Source: Flavobacteriales bacterium (GTDB taxonomy: Bacteria > Bacteroidota > Bacteroidia > NS11-12g > UBA955). Taken from it: a stretch of DNA of 36,452 nt. Location of the stretch: contig CANHQZ010000020.1 of the NCBI GenBank assembly GCA_947463125.1, positions 1 through 36,452 on the forward strand. Reading direction: 5' to 3'. Under the pieces are notes generated by a model. It made no database searches, was not told where the DNA came from, and saw only the letters and a list, made by a program, of their open reading frames with translations. Below, piece by piece: positions 2,010-7,066 of the stretch; position 1 is the first letter of the stretch; each line of letters starts with the position of its first letter. Made by a program: the position numbers and the translations under genes.

Positions 2010-2640
2010 GCCGTTGGATCGTCTGATGTTTCCCCAACCAGGTAAAAAAATTGCCTTCTGGCAAATTACCGAGGATGAAGAAACGCTTTTACAAATGTAC
2101 AACCCAACTGCGGAGGAGATTGTTTTTTTACAAGGTCTTCACGAAAGCAAGCGATTGCATTTTCTGAGCAGCCGTTTGCTGCTGCGCACCCTGGTACCCA
2201 ATGGAAAACTGGCCAAAGACGATGCCGGAAAACCCCATTTTGAAGACAAAACCCCGCACATCAGCATTAGCCACAGCGGGAATTATGCAGCGGCGATTAT
2301 TGACGAGAACAATCCCACCGGCATTGACATTGAAACACAGGGCCCCAAAATCCTGCGGATTGAGGATAAATTTTGCAACGCCGATGATAAAACCAACATT
2401 CGCAAAAGCCACCACAGTCTATGTTTGCTAATTATGTGGGGCGCCAAGGAAAGTCTGTATAAATGGTATGGCAAAAAGGAAGTGGATTTTAAAAAACATA
2501 TGACCGTGGGCCCTTTCGAAACAGGGGATTCAGGCCGGTTCTCTGCAACATTTCACAAACCCGGAATACAGCAGGATTTTGTTATGGAATACGCCGTTTT
2601 TGAAGGTCACGTGGCCGTTTGGATTCACGAAATGCTATAA
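2008..2640 (+). CDS. 4'-phosphopantetheinyl transferase superfamily protein
   Basis: The 210-residue product carries the two signature motifs of the superfamily: GIDIE, supplying the Mg-binding Asp, and WGAKESLYKWYG, equivalent to WxxKEAxxK. Such enzymes move phosphopantetheine from CoA onto a serine of an acyl or peptidyl carrier protein. A single compact domain of this length fits the Bacteroidota form, whose members commonly start MPLxK, which supports the ATG at 2008. The same frame extends back to 1834 but that part is antisense to the WD40 gene. The stop interlocks with that of the convergent flippase gene (6-bp overlap). Whether it serves ACP or a secondary-metabolite carrier cannot be told. 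Confidence 0.85.
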   Translation: MPLDRLMFPQPGKKIAFWQITEDEETLLQMYNPTAEEIVFLQGLHESKRLHFLSSRLLLRTLVPNGKLAKDDAGKPHFEDKTPHISISHSGNYAAAIIDENNPTGIDIETQGPKILRIEDKFCNADDKTNIRKSHHSLCLLIMWGAKESLYKWYGKKEVDFKKHMTVGPFETGDSGRFSATFHKPGIQQDFVMEYAVFEGHVAVWIHEML

Positions 2641-3912
2641 CCGGGCTGAACGCCTTTTTAACATTCGCACCGCAATTTTCAGGATTAATTTGAACCGAAG
2701 CTTCCCCTTCAACCGGGCATTGGGATTCTGGTTTTTGAAAAACACATACACGACTACCAGTGTCAGAATAAAACCGGTATCCGCGGCAACGCAGGCTCCG
2801 TAAATTCCCCATTTGGGAATAAGCCAGAAAGCTACAGCTGTCTGCAATAAAAGACCTGCCAAATTGGCTACAAACAATGCCTTAAAGCGGTTTACCGCAT
2901 GCAGATAATGACTGAACAAACTGGAAGCTGCCACCGCCAGAATAGCCGGAATCAGCAGCAAGGTTGTGTCTTTCAAGGTTTCGAATCCGGCTCCAAAAAC
3001 CCAAACAAAAACCGATGAGGGCAATACTGCCAGCAGCAGAAAGGCTGCTACCGTTCCGAAAACGGCAAATACCGCATAGCGTAGGGTAATATCAGCCTTG
3101 AAATTTTCATTTTTACTGCGCAAAATCCTGACGTGTGCGATGGTACCAAAACTGTTGGCAAAAATCCAGATGGCGTCGGCAATGAGCAGGGCATTGGCAT
3201 AAATGCCTGCCGCTGCATGATTTCCCAAAAGATAAGTGAGCGAATACAAACTGAGGCGATAGGCCAGAAACTGCGCCAGGTGGCCGTTTTGGCTCCAGAA
3301 ACCATCCGTGAATAAGACCCCGGGAGGAGACGCTGCATTCTTAAAGGCAAGCAGAATGGGTTTTCTTAGCATCCATGAACTCAGAACCAGCACAATCAAA
3401 TACGCATAAAAAAGCGAAGCAATGGCTGTTCCTGCGCCCAAATCAATTTTATCCCATGATGACACAAAACCTACTAAAAACAATACTTTTAATAATTCCA
3501 ACACCAGCTGGAGACGATTGCGCTCCTTTACCATGGACAAACCCTGTTGCACATTATATTGTATATTCAGCAATACCATGGGAAGGGAAACAAACCCAAC
3601 CATCCAGGCCATTTTAGAGCCGGAACCAAATATCATTAGGAGAACAAAACCGCTTAGCAGCACAAATACTGACCATGCAACACTGAAAGGAAACAATGCG
3701 GAAAGCGAAAAACGCTGCATTGCATTGGCAAGGTTGCTGCCGCCCACAAAATCGTTGCCCATCATTAAAAAACCCGCCCAAAACAAAACCAACCCCAGCT
3801 CTCCCCTGCCCTCCGGCCCCATCCAGCGCGAGCATAAAATAACAAATACCGCCGCCAGCGCAGTTCTCAACAACTGACTAACAAATGTACTGAGGGCGCT
3901 GCTGTTGCTCAT
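2635..3912 (-). CDS. Polysaccharide flippase-like membrane protein (Wzx/MOP type)
   Basis: From the ATG at 3912 the protein has 425 residues and about twelve to fourteen hydrophobic segments, beginning MSNSSALSTFVSQLLRTALA and continuing SRWMGPEGRGELGLVLF, the N-terminal pattern of polysaccharide biosynthesis exporters. It would flip lipid-linked sugar units across the inner membrane. The C-terminus is a short basic tail. The start shares ATGA with the asparagine synthase stop, so it is translationally coupled as the third gene of a glycosyltransferase-amidotransferase-flippase unit. A longer in-frame start at 3963 lies within the upstream gene and is unlikely. The exported glycan is unknown. 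Confidence 0.85.
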   Translation of the reverse strand: MSNSSALSTFVSQLLRTALAAVFVILCSRWMGPEGRGELGLVLFWAGFLMMGNDFVGGSNLANAMQRFSLSALFPFSVAWSVFVLLSGFVLLMIFGSGSKMAWMVGFVSLPMVLLNIQYNVQQGLSMVKERNRLQLVLELLKVLFLVGFVSSWDKIDLGAGTAIASLFYAYLIVLVLSSWMLRKPILLAFKNAASPPGVLFTDGFWSQNGHLAQFLAYRLSLYSLTYLLGNHAAAGIYANALLIADAIWIFANSFGTIAHVRILRSKNENFKADITLRYAVFAVFGTVAAFLLLAVLPSSVFVWVFGAGFETLKDTTLLLIPAILAVAASSLFSHYLHAVNRFKALFVANLAGLLLQTAVAFWLIPKWGIYGACVAADTGFILTLVVVYVFFKNQNPNARLKGKLRFKLILKIAVRMLKRRSARL

Positions 3913-5756
3913 GGGTGGGATTGTTGGAGGAAAACCGACAATGCGGCCAAACGAAAATACCATTTCAAGCCATTTTCATCCTCTTCCTTCAGGTTTTTCA
4001 GTAAAATTTCTCTTTTCGTCCTTGGTGACCAGGCATCCAGCAAATCCGACATTACATAGCCCGCCCAGGCATTTCGATGCTTCCAGGTGAGTGTGGCATC
4101 CGGCACGGTAAATCCTTTCTTGTCCACCCGCCAGCGAACTAATTCGGGCACCACATCTTTCAGCGCATCGCGCAACACACCTTTGGTATAGCCGTTTTTG
4201 ATTTTATCCTTCAACGGAACATTCAGCCATTTTGCCAGTTGCATATCATCGGCAAAGGGATTGCGGCTTTCCAGTCCGTGGGCCATGCCGTTCAGATCTT
4301 CCCAGGTTAGCATTTGACTCAATTTCTGCCCATAAAAATCAGCATTCATTTTATGGTCGGCACTCAGGTGAGAAAGCCGAGGCAGATACAAATCAAATTG
4401 CCACAAATCGAGGCTGATAAGTCCGCACGCATGTTTCTTTGCCGCCATGGCTGACAGGAATGGCATAAAGGTTTTGGCCTGTAGTTTCAGGTTTTCTTTT
4501 AGGGCAGTTCCGTAGGAAACCGGTAATTGATTTTTGCCCAGAAATGTTCCCTGCAATGCCCAAAAATCGCGGTATAGATAATCGGGATAACCGCCGAAAA
4601 GTTCATCGGCGCCTTGTCCGTTGAAAAACACCGTTACGCCTTGCGATTGGGCCAGCCGGCAAAGTTCATAATGCGCAAGGTTGTTCCATGCGATGGGCGG
4701 CATATCCGAGGCTCGGGCAACCTCTTCCAGCAAATGCGGACCGGCATCTTCAATGGCCAATGTGTGCCATCCGGCGCGGTTGTACTCTGCCACCTGCTGC
4801 TGCCATTGCCGTTCATCTGACTGTGGATCGGAAGAAACCACGGAAAACAGATGCAGCGGCGCATCAGGGCCGAGTGAATGACGGGCAAGGCCAATCACTG
4901 CGGCGCTATCGAGTCCGCCACTTACGGCAAATCCCAGCGGCACATCCGACATCAAACGCTTGCCCACACTGCCTTGCAGTTGCGTGCGCAAGTCAGCGCC
5001 GGGTTTTTCCTCGTTTTCAGGATAGTAAACAATGGCTGTTTCCAGGGTTTTCAGATTCACATCCACACCCTCCTGCACGATTTCTATTTCGTTATAAAAA
5101 CCCTGATCCGGCAGTATAATCCCTTCGCACAGATGGTGAAAGACCGCCTGAGGATTGATGCTGACCGCATTCAGAAAATTGCGCAGTGCCTTGGTTTCCG
5201 ATGAAAACGCAAATGCAGTTTCGGTTTGGGCATACACCAAAGGCTTGACACCGGTGGTATCGCGGCGCAGTTGCAGTGTGCGATTTTCAAGATTTACAAA
5301 GCCCAGGGCAAAAAAACCGTCGAGCTGCTGCACGGCTTCCGCAGTGAGGGTTTTTAACAAATTGAAAACCGTTTCTGTGTCCGTCCGGCTTTGGTTTTGA
5401 AACCCGTATGCATTATCAAGCTCCTTAAAACTGAAGGTTTCGCCGTTGTAAGACAAAATATGATTTTCGTCATAAAATGGCTGATGTCCCTGTGGTCCGG
5501 GCTGTATAATGCTGAGTCTTCGGTGAACAATACCGCCGATGTATTCGCCTTCTGCTGATTGAATGTGTGGCAGCTGCAGTGCAAGTAAACTTCGGTTTCC
5601 TGCAAAAGCGTGTGGCTTCCAGTTTGTGTCAATTAACACAAAACCTTCATCATCAGGTCCGCGGTGTGCCAGGTCTTCCGAAAATTGCAGGCATATCCTT
5701 GACATATCCGCCGCGGGCATGGGTTTGAGGCTGAATATTCCGGCAATTCCGCACAT
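3909..5756 (-). CDS. asnB: Asparagine synthase (glutamine-hydrolysing) family amidotransferase
   Basis: This 615-residue two-domain enzyme starts MCGIAGIFSL, with Cys2 as the class II glutaminase nucleophile after Met removal. It then shows AHRGPDDEG, HRRLSIIQ and SYNGETFSFKEL typical of the amidotransferase half. The synthetase half has the ATP-binding loop VSGGLDSAAVIG (about residue 280) and FFNGQGADELFGGYPDY. It converts Asp to Asn, or in glycan clusters amidates uronic-acid sugars, using glutamine. It sits between a glycosyltransferase (2-bp gap) and a flippase (4-bp overlap), which favours a role in surface polysaccharide over general asparagine supply. All key residues are present. Confidence 0.9.
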   Translation of the reverse strand: MCGIAGIFSLKPMPAADMSRICLQFSEDLAHRGPDDEGFVLIDTNWKPHAFAGNRSLLALQLPHIQSAEGEYIGGIVHRRLSIIQPGPQGHQPFYDENHILSYNGETFSFKELDNAYGFQNQSRTDTETVFNLLKTLTAEAVQQLDGFFALGFVNLENRTLQLRRDTTGVKPLVYAQTETAFAFSSETKALRNFLNAVSINPQAVFHHLCEGIILPDQGFYNEIEIVQEGVDVNLKTLETAIVYYPENEEKPGADLRTQLQGSVGKRLMSDVPLGFAVSGGLDSAAVIGLARHSLGPDAPLHLFSVVSSDPQSDERQWQQQVAEYNRAGWHTLAIEDAGPHLLEEVARASDMPPIAWNNLAHYELCRLAQSQGVTVFFNGQGADELFGGYPDYLYRDFWALQGTFLGKNQLPVSYGTALKENLKLQAKTFMPFLSAMAAKKHACGLISLDLWQFDLYLPRLSHLSADHKMNADFYGQKLSQMLTWEDLNGMAHGLESRNPFADDMQLAKWLNVPLKDKIKNGYTKGVLRDALKDVVPELVRWRVDKKGFTVPDATLTWKHRNAWAGYVMSDLLDAWSPRTKREILLKNLKEEDENGLKWYFRLAALSVFLQQSHP

Positions 5757-5758
5757 GG

Positions 5759-6880
5759 TTAGGGTATCAATTGTTGATATAGTGCCTCGTAGGCATCCAA
5801 CACGGCCTTTGTATTGAATTGTTGACGGGCTTTGGCGGCAATATAACTTCTGTCTGTCGAAAAACCCTCGGTTCTACGCATAGCTTCCAGCAATGAAGCG
5901 TCGTTATCTGCATCGCAGATGATTCCCATTTTTTCATCGATATACAAATCGGCGCCTTTGCAGGGGGTAAAAATAGCGGGTACACCCAGGCACAGTGCCT
6001 CCGCAATAACAAGACCGAAAGTTTCAAAACGGCTGTAGCTAAGCAGGAAATCGGCGTTTTGCATGCGCTTCAGCAGAATTGACTTGTCATCATTTGGTAC
6101 GAGCAGTTCAATTTTATCCCAGCTGTAGTGCGGATTCTCAGATTTGAAGACATTGAACGCATCTTCGGGGACATTTAGCTGCAAACGGGCATGGGGATTT
6201 TCCTGCGCATATTGCGAAAACACGCGAATGATCTTGTGGGTCTGCTTTTGCCTGAAATTGAAATTCGAAACATGCAGAAAGACAGGACCACCTGGTTTCG
6301 GATCAGCAATTTTAGCGTTGGTAAACTCCTGGGCCACCGGATTCGGGATTACCTGTACGGGTTTGCCGGTAGCAGACGAAATATGGTCTGCCAGATTGGC
6401 CGAAACAGCAGAGATGGCGGAAGCCCTGCGCATAGCCCATGCTGTGAGTTGCCGCTTCCAGCCCGGATATTGTCTGTCTTGAGGCAGCCAGTCGGTATTG
6501 TGTTCGGTAACTACCATCGGCAGATTTTTTCTTTTCAAAAATAAAACTGCATCCCAGGCGGCTTTCCAGCCCACCTGCACATGTATCAGATTTACATCAG
6601 CGCACATTTCCAGACATTGATTCAACAGTTTTTTCACATGGTACTGATGGTAGAAAGGAGCAAAAATTCCACTTTTTCGGGGAATGCTGATTTCAAACTC
6701 CTCAAAACCCGGCTGTGTGTGCCTTATAATTACCGGCTTACCACCTTTTGAATGATAACGAACATAGGCAACTGATACCTTACAGCGCGTGGCAAGTAAA
6801 GCCGCCAGTTCGCGGCAGAAAATGCCATTCAGTGGGTTTTCCGGGGTGGGATACCAGCTGCAAAAAAGAAGAATATGTAA
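5759..6880 (-). CDS. GT4-type glycosyltransferase lacking a recognisable start codon
   Basis: The C-terminal half is a GT-B donor-binding domain: VFLHVSNF, then SRFETFGLVIAEALCLGVPA with the EX7E motif of family GT4. The first GTG in frame (6637) would delete most of the acceptor-binding Rossmann fold. Translating further upstream gives clear family sequence, LHILLFCSWYPTPENPLNGI followed by FCRELAALLA, so coding runs to at least 6880. No ATG, GTG or TTG exists in frame between 6638 and about 6967; the position where family members start (MxILLFCSWYP) holds TTA. Either a rare start codon is used, the start was mutated, or there is a base error. It heads the asnB-flippase unit. The boundary given is the family-like start, not a proven one. 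Confidence 0.75.
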   Translation of the reverse strand, partial: LHILLFCSWYPTPENPLNGIFCRELAALLATRCKVSVAYVRYHSKGGKPVIIRHTQPGFEEFEISIPRKSGIFAPFYHQYHVKKLLNQCLEMCADVNLIHVQVGWKAAWDAVLFLKRKNLPMVVTEHNTDWLPQDRQYPGWKRQLTAWAMRRASAISAVSANLADHISSATGKPVQVIPNPVAQEFTNAKIADPKPGGPVFLHVSNFNFRQKQTHKIIRVFSQYAQENPHARLQLNVPEDAFNVFKSENPHYSWDKIELLVPNDDKSILLKRMQNADFLLSYSRFETFGLVIAEALCLGVPAIFTPCKGADLYIDEKMGIICDADNDASLLEAMRRTEGFSTDRSYIAAKARQQFNTKAVLDAYEALYQQLIP

Positions 6881-6975
6881 GGGTCGCTGCGCTTGGATAG
6901 GTGCAAAGATGATAAAACGTATTGAATTCCTGTTGAGAAAATGATGAATGTTCCTTAAATTTGCAGCCCTTTACG

Positions 6976-7049
6976 GCGGATATAGCTCAGTTGGTTAGAG
7001 CACCAGTTTGTGGCACTGGGGGTCGCCGGTTCGAACCCGGTTATTCGCC
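6976..7049 (+). tRNA. tRNA-His (anticodon GTG)
   Basis: The sequence folds as a cloverleaf: acceptor GCGGATA pairs with TATTCGC, D-stem GCTC/GAGC, anticodon stem CCAGT/ACTGG around loop TTGTGGC (anticodon GTG), and T-arm GCCGG-TTCGAAC-CCGGT. A G at 6975 and the discriminator C at 7049 supply the extra G-1:C73 pair that marks histidine tRNAs. A complete 3' CCA is not encoded. G34 of this anticodon is a standard queuosine position, and tgt is also in this window. A terminator follows at 7067. Confidence 0.96.
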
Positions 7050-7066
7050 CAAGGTAATTTCAAAGT

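Follow-up and report, generated by a model that had tools for sequence, protein, structure and literature searches.

A predicted glycosyltransferase gene beside tRNA-His in a genus of Flavobacteriales lacks a canonical start codon and may be translated from a leaderless AUC

The window analyzed here, a stretch of 36,452 nucleotides from a Flavobacteriales bacterium, carries a predicted GT4 glycosyltransferase gene (GT) that very likely starts at a codon other than ATG, GTG or TTG. As judged from its sequence, the gene is intact and under purifying selection, neither the outcome of a base error nor dead. The reading that we favor, with modest confidence, is that GT would be translated from a leaderless mRNA beginning at ATC 6898-6896, immediately downstream of a putative -7 promoter box that is invariant across the genus.

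The GT frame lies on the minus strand, where it follows the stop TAA 6973-6971 and has its 3' end at 5759. Read codon by codon, it contains no in-frame ATG, GTG or TTG from 6970 down to 6638, a start-less run of 111 codons, and its first canonical codon is GTG 6637-6635. The family sequence HILLFCSWYPTPENPLNG sits upstream of that codon; both points had been made by an earlier, sequence-only reading of this DNA and both hold. The translated frame matches the Pfam Glyco_transf_4 N-domain and Glycos_transf_1 C-domain, both above gathering scores, and it is by both of these domains that the gene is a predicted GT4 glycosyltransferase. The protein also contains an E-x7-E stretch within SRFETFGLVIAEA, which we take to be the E-x7-E motif of GT4 enzymes. 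Its best matches in solved structures and among NCBIfam models are BshA enzymes, and the NCBIfam profile scan of GT returned no equivalog model at or above cut-off. In the predicted GT model (mean pLDDT 83.6), strand 1 comprises residues 8-13, beginning at a His, and residues 1-3 fall below 50.

Downstream of GT lie an asnB-type asparagine synthase gene and a third gene of the apparent operon (Table 1). The distance from the GT stop to the asnB start is 2 nt in six and 3 nt in one of seven genus genomes, and such a conserved spacing is as expected of a coupled pair. The third gene had previously been called a flippase; it has no Pfam or NCBIfam match, and the name is therefore unproven. At one locus outside the genus (L009, genome G013), GT and the next gene overlap, the start of the latter (ATGTGCGGAATAG) sharing bases with the GT stop, as against the gap of 2-3 nt within the genus.

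The genus set comprises seven genomes, the window's own included, and in all seven GT is found beside the divergent tRNA-His gene. The GT proteins of the six relatives are 47% to 75% identical to that of the window. None of the seven genomes has ATG, GTG or TTG ahead of the enzyme's first strand, and the first 200 aligned codons hold no canonical-codon column common to all seven. Strand 1 itself includes a TTG in two relatives (L007 and L008), which is absent there in the other genus members. In three of the seven (L005, L007 and L008), in-frame stops stand just upstream of the -7 box, so that in those species the start has to lie at the box or below it.

The seven-species alignment also brings out the organization of the start region. 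The segment CATCTTTGCA is identical in all species; two bases further on, all share TAT and then a pyrimidine (C or T); six variable codons come after it, and then CAT-ATY is kept. The degenerate box CATCTTTG is present at 6911-6904, where the sequence-only reading had placed it, and a functional role is supported by the identity of CATCTTTGCA in all seven species, its flanks varying in the two more distant ones. The first base of CATCTTTG is C rather than the T of TAnnTTTG, and no TTG -33 element was seen at the usual distance ahead of it. The same reading had pointed to the TTA at 6880-6878, one base from TTG, as the usual position of the initiator. This codon is indeed there, but it varies across the seven species, and a damaged TTG at 6880 is ruled out by that lack of conservation.

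Near-cognate columns common to all seven species number two in the first 20 aligned codons, namely ATC/ATT at 6898 and ATT/ATC at 6874. The former is the only near-cognate codon that all seven share between the box and the His codon; it lies 7 codons ahead of His and 13 ahead of the W-P motif in the genus, and 5 nt downstream of CATCTTTG. The TAT at 6899-6897 is kept in all seven as well, and this conserved TAT could be a transcription initiator alone. Codons 2-7 after 6898 gave a pN/pS of 1.2 among five close species, over 18 nt that are too short to decide, and show no third-position excess. Codons without constraint are what a leader would look like, and a free tail too.

Table 1. Features of the GT locus and its surroundings in the window
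Feature	Position	Strand	Basis and remarks
tRNA-His, GTG anticodon, divergent	6976..7050	+	ARAGORN; beside GT in 7/7 genus genomes
TAAATTTG, likely -7 box of the tRNA-His gene, pointing away from GT	6956..6963	+	Read from sequence; putative promoter
TTG 20 nt upstream of TAAATTTG	6933-6935	+	Read from sequence
Degenerate -7 promoter box CATCTTTG (consensus TAnnTTTG)	6904..6911	-	Invariant in 7/7; putative promoter
5-nt spacer CACCT, box to proposed start	6899..6903	-	5 nt in 7/7; 4-5 nt in 24 other-genus cases
Proposed leaderless start ATC (AUC)	6896..6898	-	ATC in 5/7, ATT in 2/7
GT4 glycosyltransferase CDS from proposed start	5759..6898	-	379 codons + stop; Pfam domains, pN/pS, predicted model
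TTA, earlier proposed lost initiator	6878..6880	-	TTA, AAA, AGA, AAA, AAA, GAT, CTT across seven species
Rival leadered start ATT	6872..6874	-	ATT in 6/7, ATC in 1/7; inside strand 1, after conserved His
GTG, first canonical codon, not likely start	6635..6637	-	GTG in 5/7, TAC and TAT in other two; coding selection also upstream
asnB-type asparagine synthase	3909..5756	-	TIGR01536 above cut-off; ATG 2 nt after GT stop
Third gene of apparent operon ("flippase" in earlier reading)	2635..3963	-	Overlaps asnB end

The spacing between box and candidate start is that of leaderless genes in Bacteroidota, whose start codons likewise follow the -7 box by 4-5 nt (PMC9723704). In F. psychrophilum, promoters with mapped transcription starts have the TAnnTTTG box at -12 to -5 (PMC9723704). 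Four bases thus separate the box from +1, and the expected 5' end of the GT mRNA falls on the A of ATC 6898 or on the base before it. The same study gives the leaderless share of mapped F. psychrophilum mRNAs as 5.5%.

Leaderless-type starts, to judge from this spacing, are frequent in the window's genome, though they are not the sole arrangement. In the 69% of the genome that was surveyed, canonical codons stand in frame after TAnnTTTG at 93 of 318 boxes for distances of 4-5 nt (67 ATG, 22 GTG and 4 TTG), as compared to 12 of 475 at 0-3 nt. A second peak occurs at 7 nt (39/167, with ATG in 36/167), and a reversed-box control, with a smaller sample, gave 5/71 at 4-5 nt. The arrangement is kept between species in the case of rpe, where ATG follows the box by 4-5 nt in all seven, and of an enoyl-CoA-hydratase-like gene, where GTG follows by 4 nt in the five readable species out of five (one of the six hits is truncated and one genome has no hit). 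GTG makes up 22 of the 93 canonical codons at 4-5 nt from the -7 box but 10 of 136 at 6-12 nt, which hints at a better tolerance of GUG in leaderless messages of this genome. Leaderless translation in E. coli is reported to prefer AUG strongly, GUG faring better in some other bacteria (PMC9031893).

For ATT and ATC, in contrast to the canonical codons, there is no excess at 4-5 nt after TAnnTTTG in the same 69% of the genome (10/318 versus 30/475 at 0-3 nt). Looser VAnnTTTG boxes, in a smaller sample, are followed by ATT at 4 nt in 8/80 and by ATC at 5 nt in 9/179. GT is one of 21 listed ATT/ATC cases at 4-5 nt; in each of the other 20, a canonical codon stands in frame upstream or no more than 20 codons downstream, and none of these 20 is a clear further candidate for a leaderless AUC/AUU start. 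The infC gene of the seven genus genomes (L055-L061) has an in-frame TTG, and no ATG, around its expected start in all seven. A general habit of AUH starts is ruled out by the TTG at infC together with the missing ATT/ATC excess at 4-5 nt. Elsewhere, AUC, AUU and AUA starts have been termed rare in bacteria, and the ribosome profiling of M. tuberculosis presented in the same source did not show ATT or ATC to be enriched among starts (PMC9094748). In E. coli, IF3 acts against leaderless messages as well as against non-canonical codons (PMC2268962, PMC5472188); the proposed leaderless AUC/AUU start would thus be weak twice over.

The tRNA-His locus is also informative outside the genus. A search of 69 family genomes with the tRNA-His sequence gave 60 hits, and the DNA was read beside 59 of them; 22 of the 59 loci were left out as having no W-P type frame (L076 and L089 for want of flanking sequence), which leaves 37 glycosyltransferase-type frames. 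In 24 of these 37, from four other genera, ATG (12) or GTG (12) follows TACTTTTG or TACATTTG by 4-5 nt, with the W-P motif 11-12 codons further on. These 24 tRNA-His-linked GT4 genes share with the window's GT the divergent slot and the box-to-start spacing, but differ from it in their ATG or GTG start and in being, without exception, GW-type enzymes with distant similarity to the window's protein; the shared slot is therefore better established than strict orthology. A further hit, in G091, is outside the count of 37 and reads TACTTTTG, 5 nt, ATG. The divergent pairing of tRNA-His with a glycosyltransferase gene is kept in many family genera (L065-L112) despite a change of enzyme type, SWYP-type or GW-type. 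In two other genera (L009 and L010), TAAATTGC ahead of GT matches the TAnnTTGY box, a box that has been tied to genes of LPS biosynthesis, amino-acid scavenging and gliding (PMC9723704).

The 37 frames take in six that fit neither group (L070, L074, L094, L101, L102 and L112). The first five are SWYP/SWFP-type genes with canonical codons, the nearest by sequence included, and have no matching box 4-5 nt before the candidate start. L101 and L102 (G019 and G027) have closely similar starts, with ATG in one and ATA in the other at one codon, and an in-frame TTG two codons on. L112 (G016:C1:1138600-1140300; also L018), from another genus, is a GT gene without a canonical start. Its start region reads TAA and then TTT ATC AAG CAG CAT ATC, with the first ATC in the expected place of the methionine, 9 nt after CATATTTG. 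This second genus may have reached an AUC start at the tRNA-His-linked locus independently.

Taken as a mechanism, the leaderless reading would run as follows. The box CATCTTTG would set the transcription start at or within one base of A6898 and so give an mRNA without a leader, on which the ribosome and initiator tRNA would start at the 5'-terminal AUC (AUU in two species) of 6898-6896. The product would carry a seven-residue tail ahead of strand 1 (HILLFC), and ribosomes leaving GT would probably pass to the asnB AUG, which is 2-3 nt beyond the GT stop. The weak box and the weak codon might together keep output low or make it IF3-dependent, as for infC and sigR, although this last step is speculative.

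The main alternative to a start at 6898, unlikely in our view yet deserving serious attention, is that a leader of about 24 nt precedes an infC-like leadered start at ATT 6874-6872, in which case the TAT at 6899-6897 would be a transcription initiator only. The codon at 6874 is ATT in six species and ATC in the seventh, the coding signature is seen from the His codon on and not in the preceding 18 nt, and leadered mRNAs, with a median leader of 24 bp, are the majority in F. psychrophilum (PMC9723704). Such a start would, however, leave the conserved His untranslated, despite the fact that His-Ile heads strand 1 in all 13 tRNA-His-linked SWYP/SWFP-type genes. Five of these 13 genes have in-frame canonical codons upstream, and all five have one exactly 5 codons before His; a start is thus expected a few codons before His, which favors 6898 over 6874. 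Translation from 6874 would also begin inside strand 1 of the predicted model, and only 5 codons before the W-P motif as compared to 11-12 in the 24 box-linked starts of other genera. Finally, position -3 relative to 6874 is C in all seven species, and not the A favored in F. johnsoniae (PMC6847099).

It is less probable still that the gene uses some other non-canonical codon between the box and strand 1, or within the box itself (ATC 6910-6908), possibly differing from species to species. ATC 6910 is likewise invariant and in frame, and further non-canonical starts, such as GUC, are known (PMC5472188). But 6910 is part of the -7 box, and a transcript started from that box would lack it; and, 6898 aside, no near-cognate column from the box to His is common to all seven species. 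Initiation at a canonical codon outside this frame, with a programmed frameshift afterwards, seems very improbable: strand 1 of the window does contain a T-run, and the TTTG of the box an out-of-frame TTG, but the T-run is not kept in relatives and the TTG lies within the promoter box.

The remaining alternatives are addressed by the pattern of selection. Pairwise comparisons among the five close species, ten in all and summed, give a pN/pS of 0.25 across the 80 codons that begin with His (6877) and end just before GTG 6637; from 6637 to the end of GT the value is 0.27. The equality of these values on either side of 6637 indicates that the upstream part is protein of the same standing as the remainder. 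A true start at GTG 6637 or at another downstream canonical codon, with the upstream frame left untranslated, is accordingly scarcely credible, even though this GTG is the first canonical codon of the window's frame and is shared by five of the seven species. Besides running against the equal selection, which rules GTG 6637 out, it would cost the enzyme most of its N-terminal domain, and no canonical column within the first 200 aligned codons is shared by all seven genomes. Orthologues starting near 6637 had been named in the sequence-only reading as what would speak against a missing start; the comparison of start regions gave this equal selection instead, with GTG in five of seven only.

With its frame complete in the window and a pN/pS of about 0.26 from His onward among the five close species, GT does not have the marks of a pseudogene. 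The chance of a sequencing or assembly error, or of a pseudogene with a lost start, is negligible: the earlier reading rested on a single genome, a draft assembly of 85 contigs, but seven assemblies now agree, purifying selection is strong, the 379-codon frame is intact and the asnB spacing is kept. That reading had left three options, a rare start codon, a start loss that silences the gene, and a base error. The first of them stands, and the other two fall because the absence of a canonical start is common to all seven genomes and the gene is under purifying selection.

The start-less GT frame is rare in its own genome, beyond chance. Our survey covered 1,611,592 bp (69% of the genome), in which 1,204 open frames reached 150 codons or more; these were ordered by how far each runs without a canonical start codon. 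Genes were called as the longest open frame, false frames included, and since the survey ranks long start-less runs only, it would overlook any start-less gene that happens to have a canonical codon close to where it really starts. GT, with its 111 codons, is sixth of the 1,204 frames. The five ranked above it have no Pfam match, and each is overlain by another long open frame (116 to 321 codons), in two cases longer than itself. The Pfam scan took in all 22 top-listed frames, stopping for two of them where the retrieved sequence ends, and among these 22 only GT and prfB have a Pfam match that begins before the first canonical codon. For prfB, which is read through a programmed frameshift, the match begins at residue 11 and the first canonical codon is codon 62.

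Non-canonical starts on intact genes are known from other systems. The infC gene is translated from a leader with a Shine-Dalgarno context. It starts with ATT in E. coli and with ATC in Streptomyces, while sigR starts with GTC, and both genes are described as limited by IF3 (PMC5472188). GT resembles infC in having a non-canonical AUH start on an intact gene (PMC5472188), but infC is leadered and IF3-autoregulated, whereas the start of GT is seemingly leaderless and its predicted product a glycosyltransferase. Streptomyces sigR is like GT in that the gene with the non-canonical start comes first in a translationally coupled pair (probable coupling in the case of GT), and in sigR this start is reported to lower the share of the first gene relative to the second (PMC5472188). 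sigR differs from GT in codon, phylum and function and in having a ribosome-binding site, and IF3 control has been demonstrated for sigR according to the same source.

Leaderless genes described in other work use AUG and GUG as working starts (PMC9031893), as against the AUC/AUU proposed at GT. AUC and AUU are absent from the main texts of PMC9031893 and PMC6847099, and AUC is absent from those of PMC3160421 and PMC12340547. Our literature search found no report of a leaderless AUC or AUU start in bacteria. Work on Deinococcus deserti, an organism rich in leaderless mRNAs, is said to have reported AUC and CUG starts, so that a precedent for a leaderless AUC start may exist there.

A broader proposal, which we offer tentatively and regard as possible rather than probable, is that a leaderless AUC/AUU start of a surface-sugar operon is genus-wide and kept for regulation; near-cognate codons would be accepted at a free 5' end and output would follow the IF3 balance. 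At the level of annotation, gene finders limited to ATG, GTG and TTG would trim GT at 6637 or omit it altogether, and a comparison of box-to-start spacing across the syntenic slot could reveal further such genes. If the leaderless start is true, a conserved AUC/AUU codon at this position would provide a natural test of how starts are chosen without Shine-Dalgarno help in Bacteroidota, and also of whether weak starts set the balance of genes within an operon.
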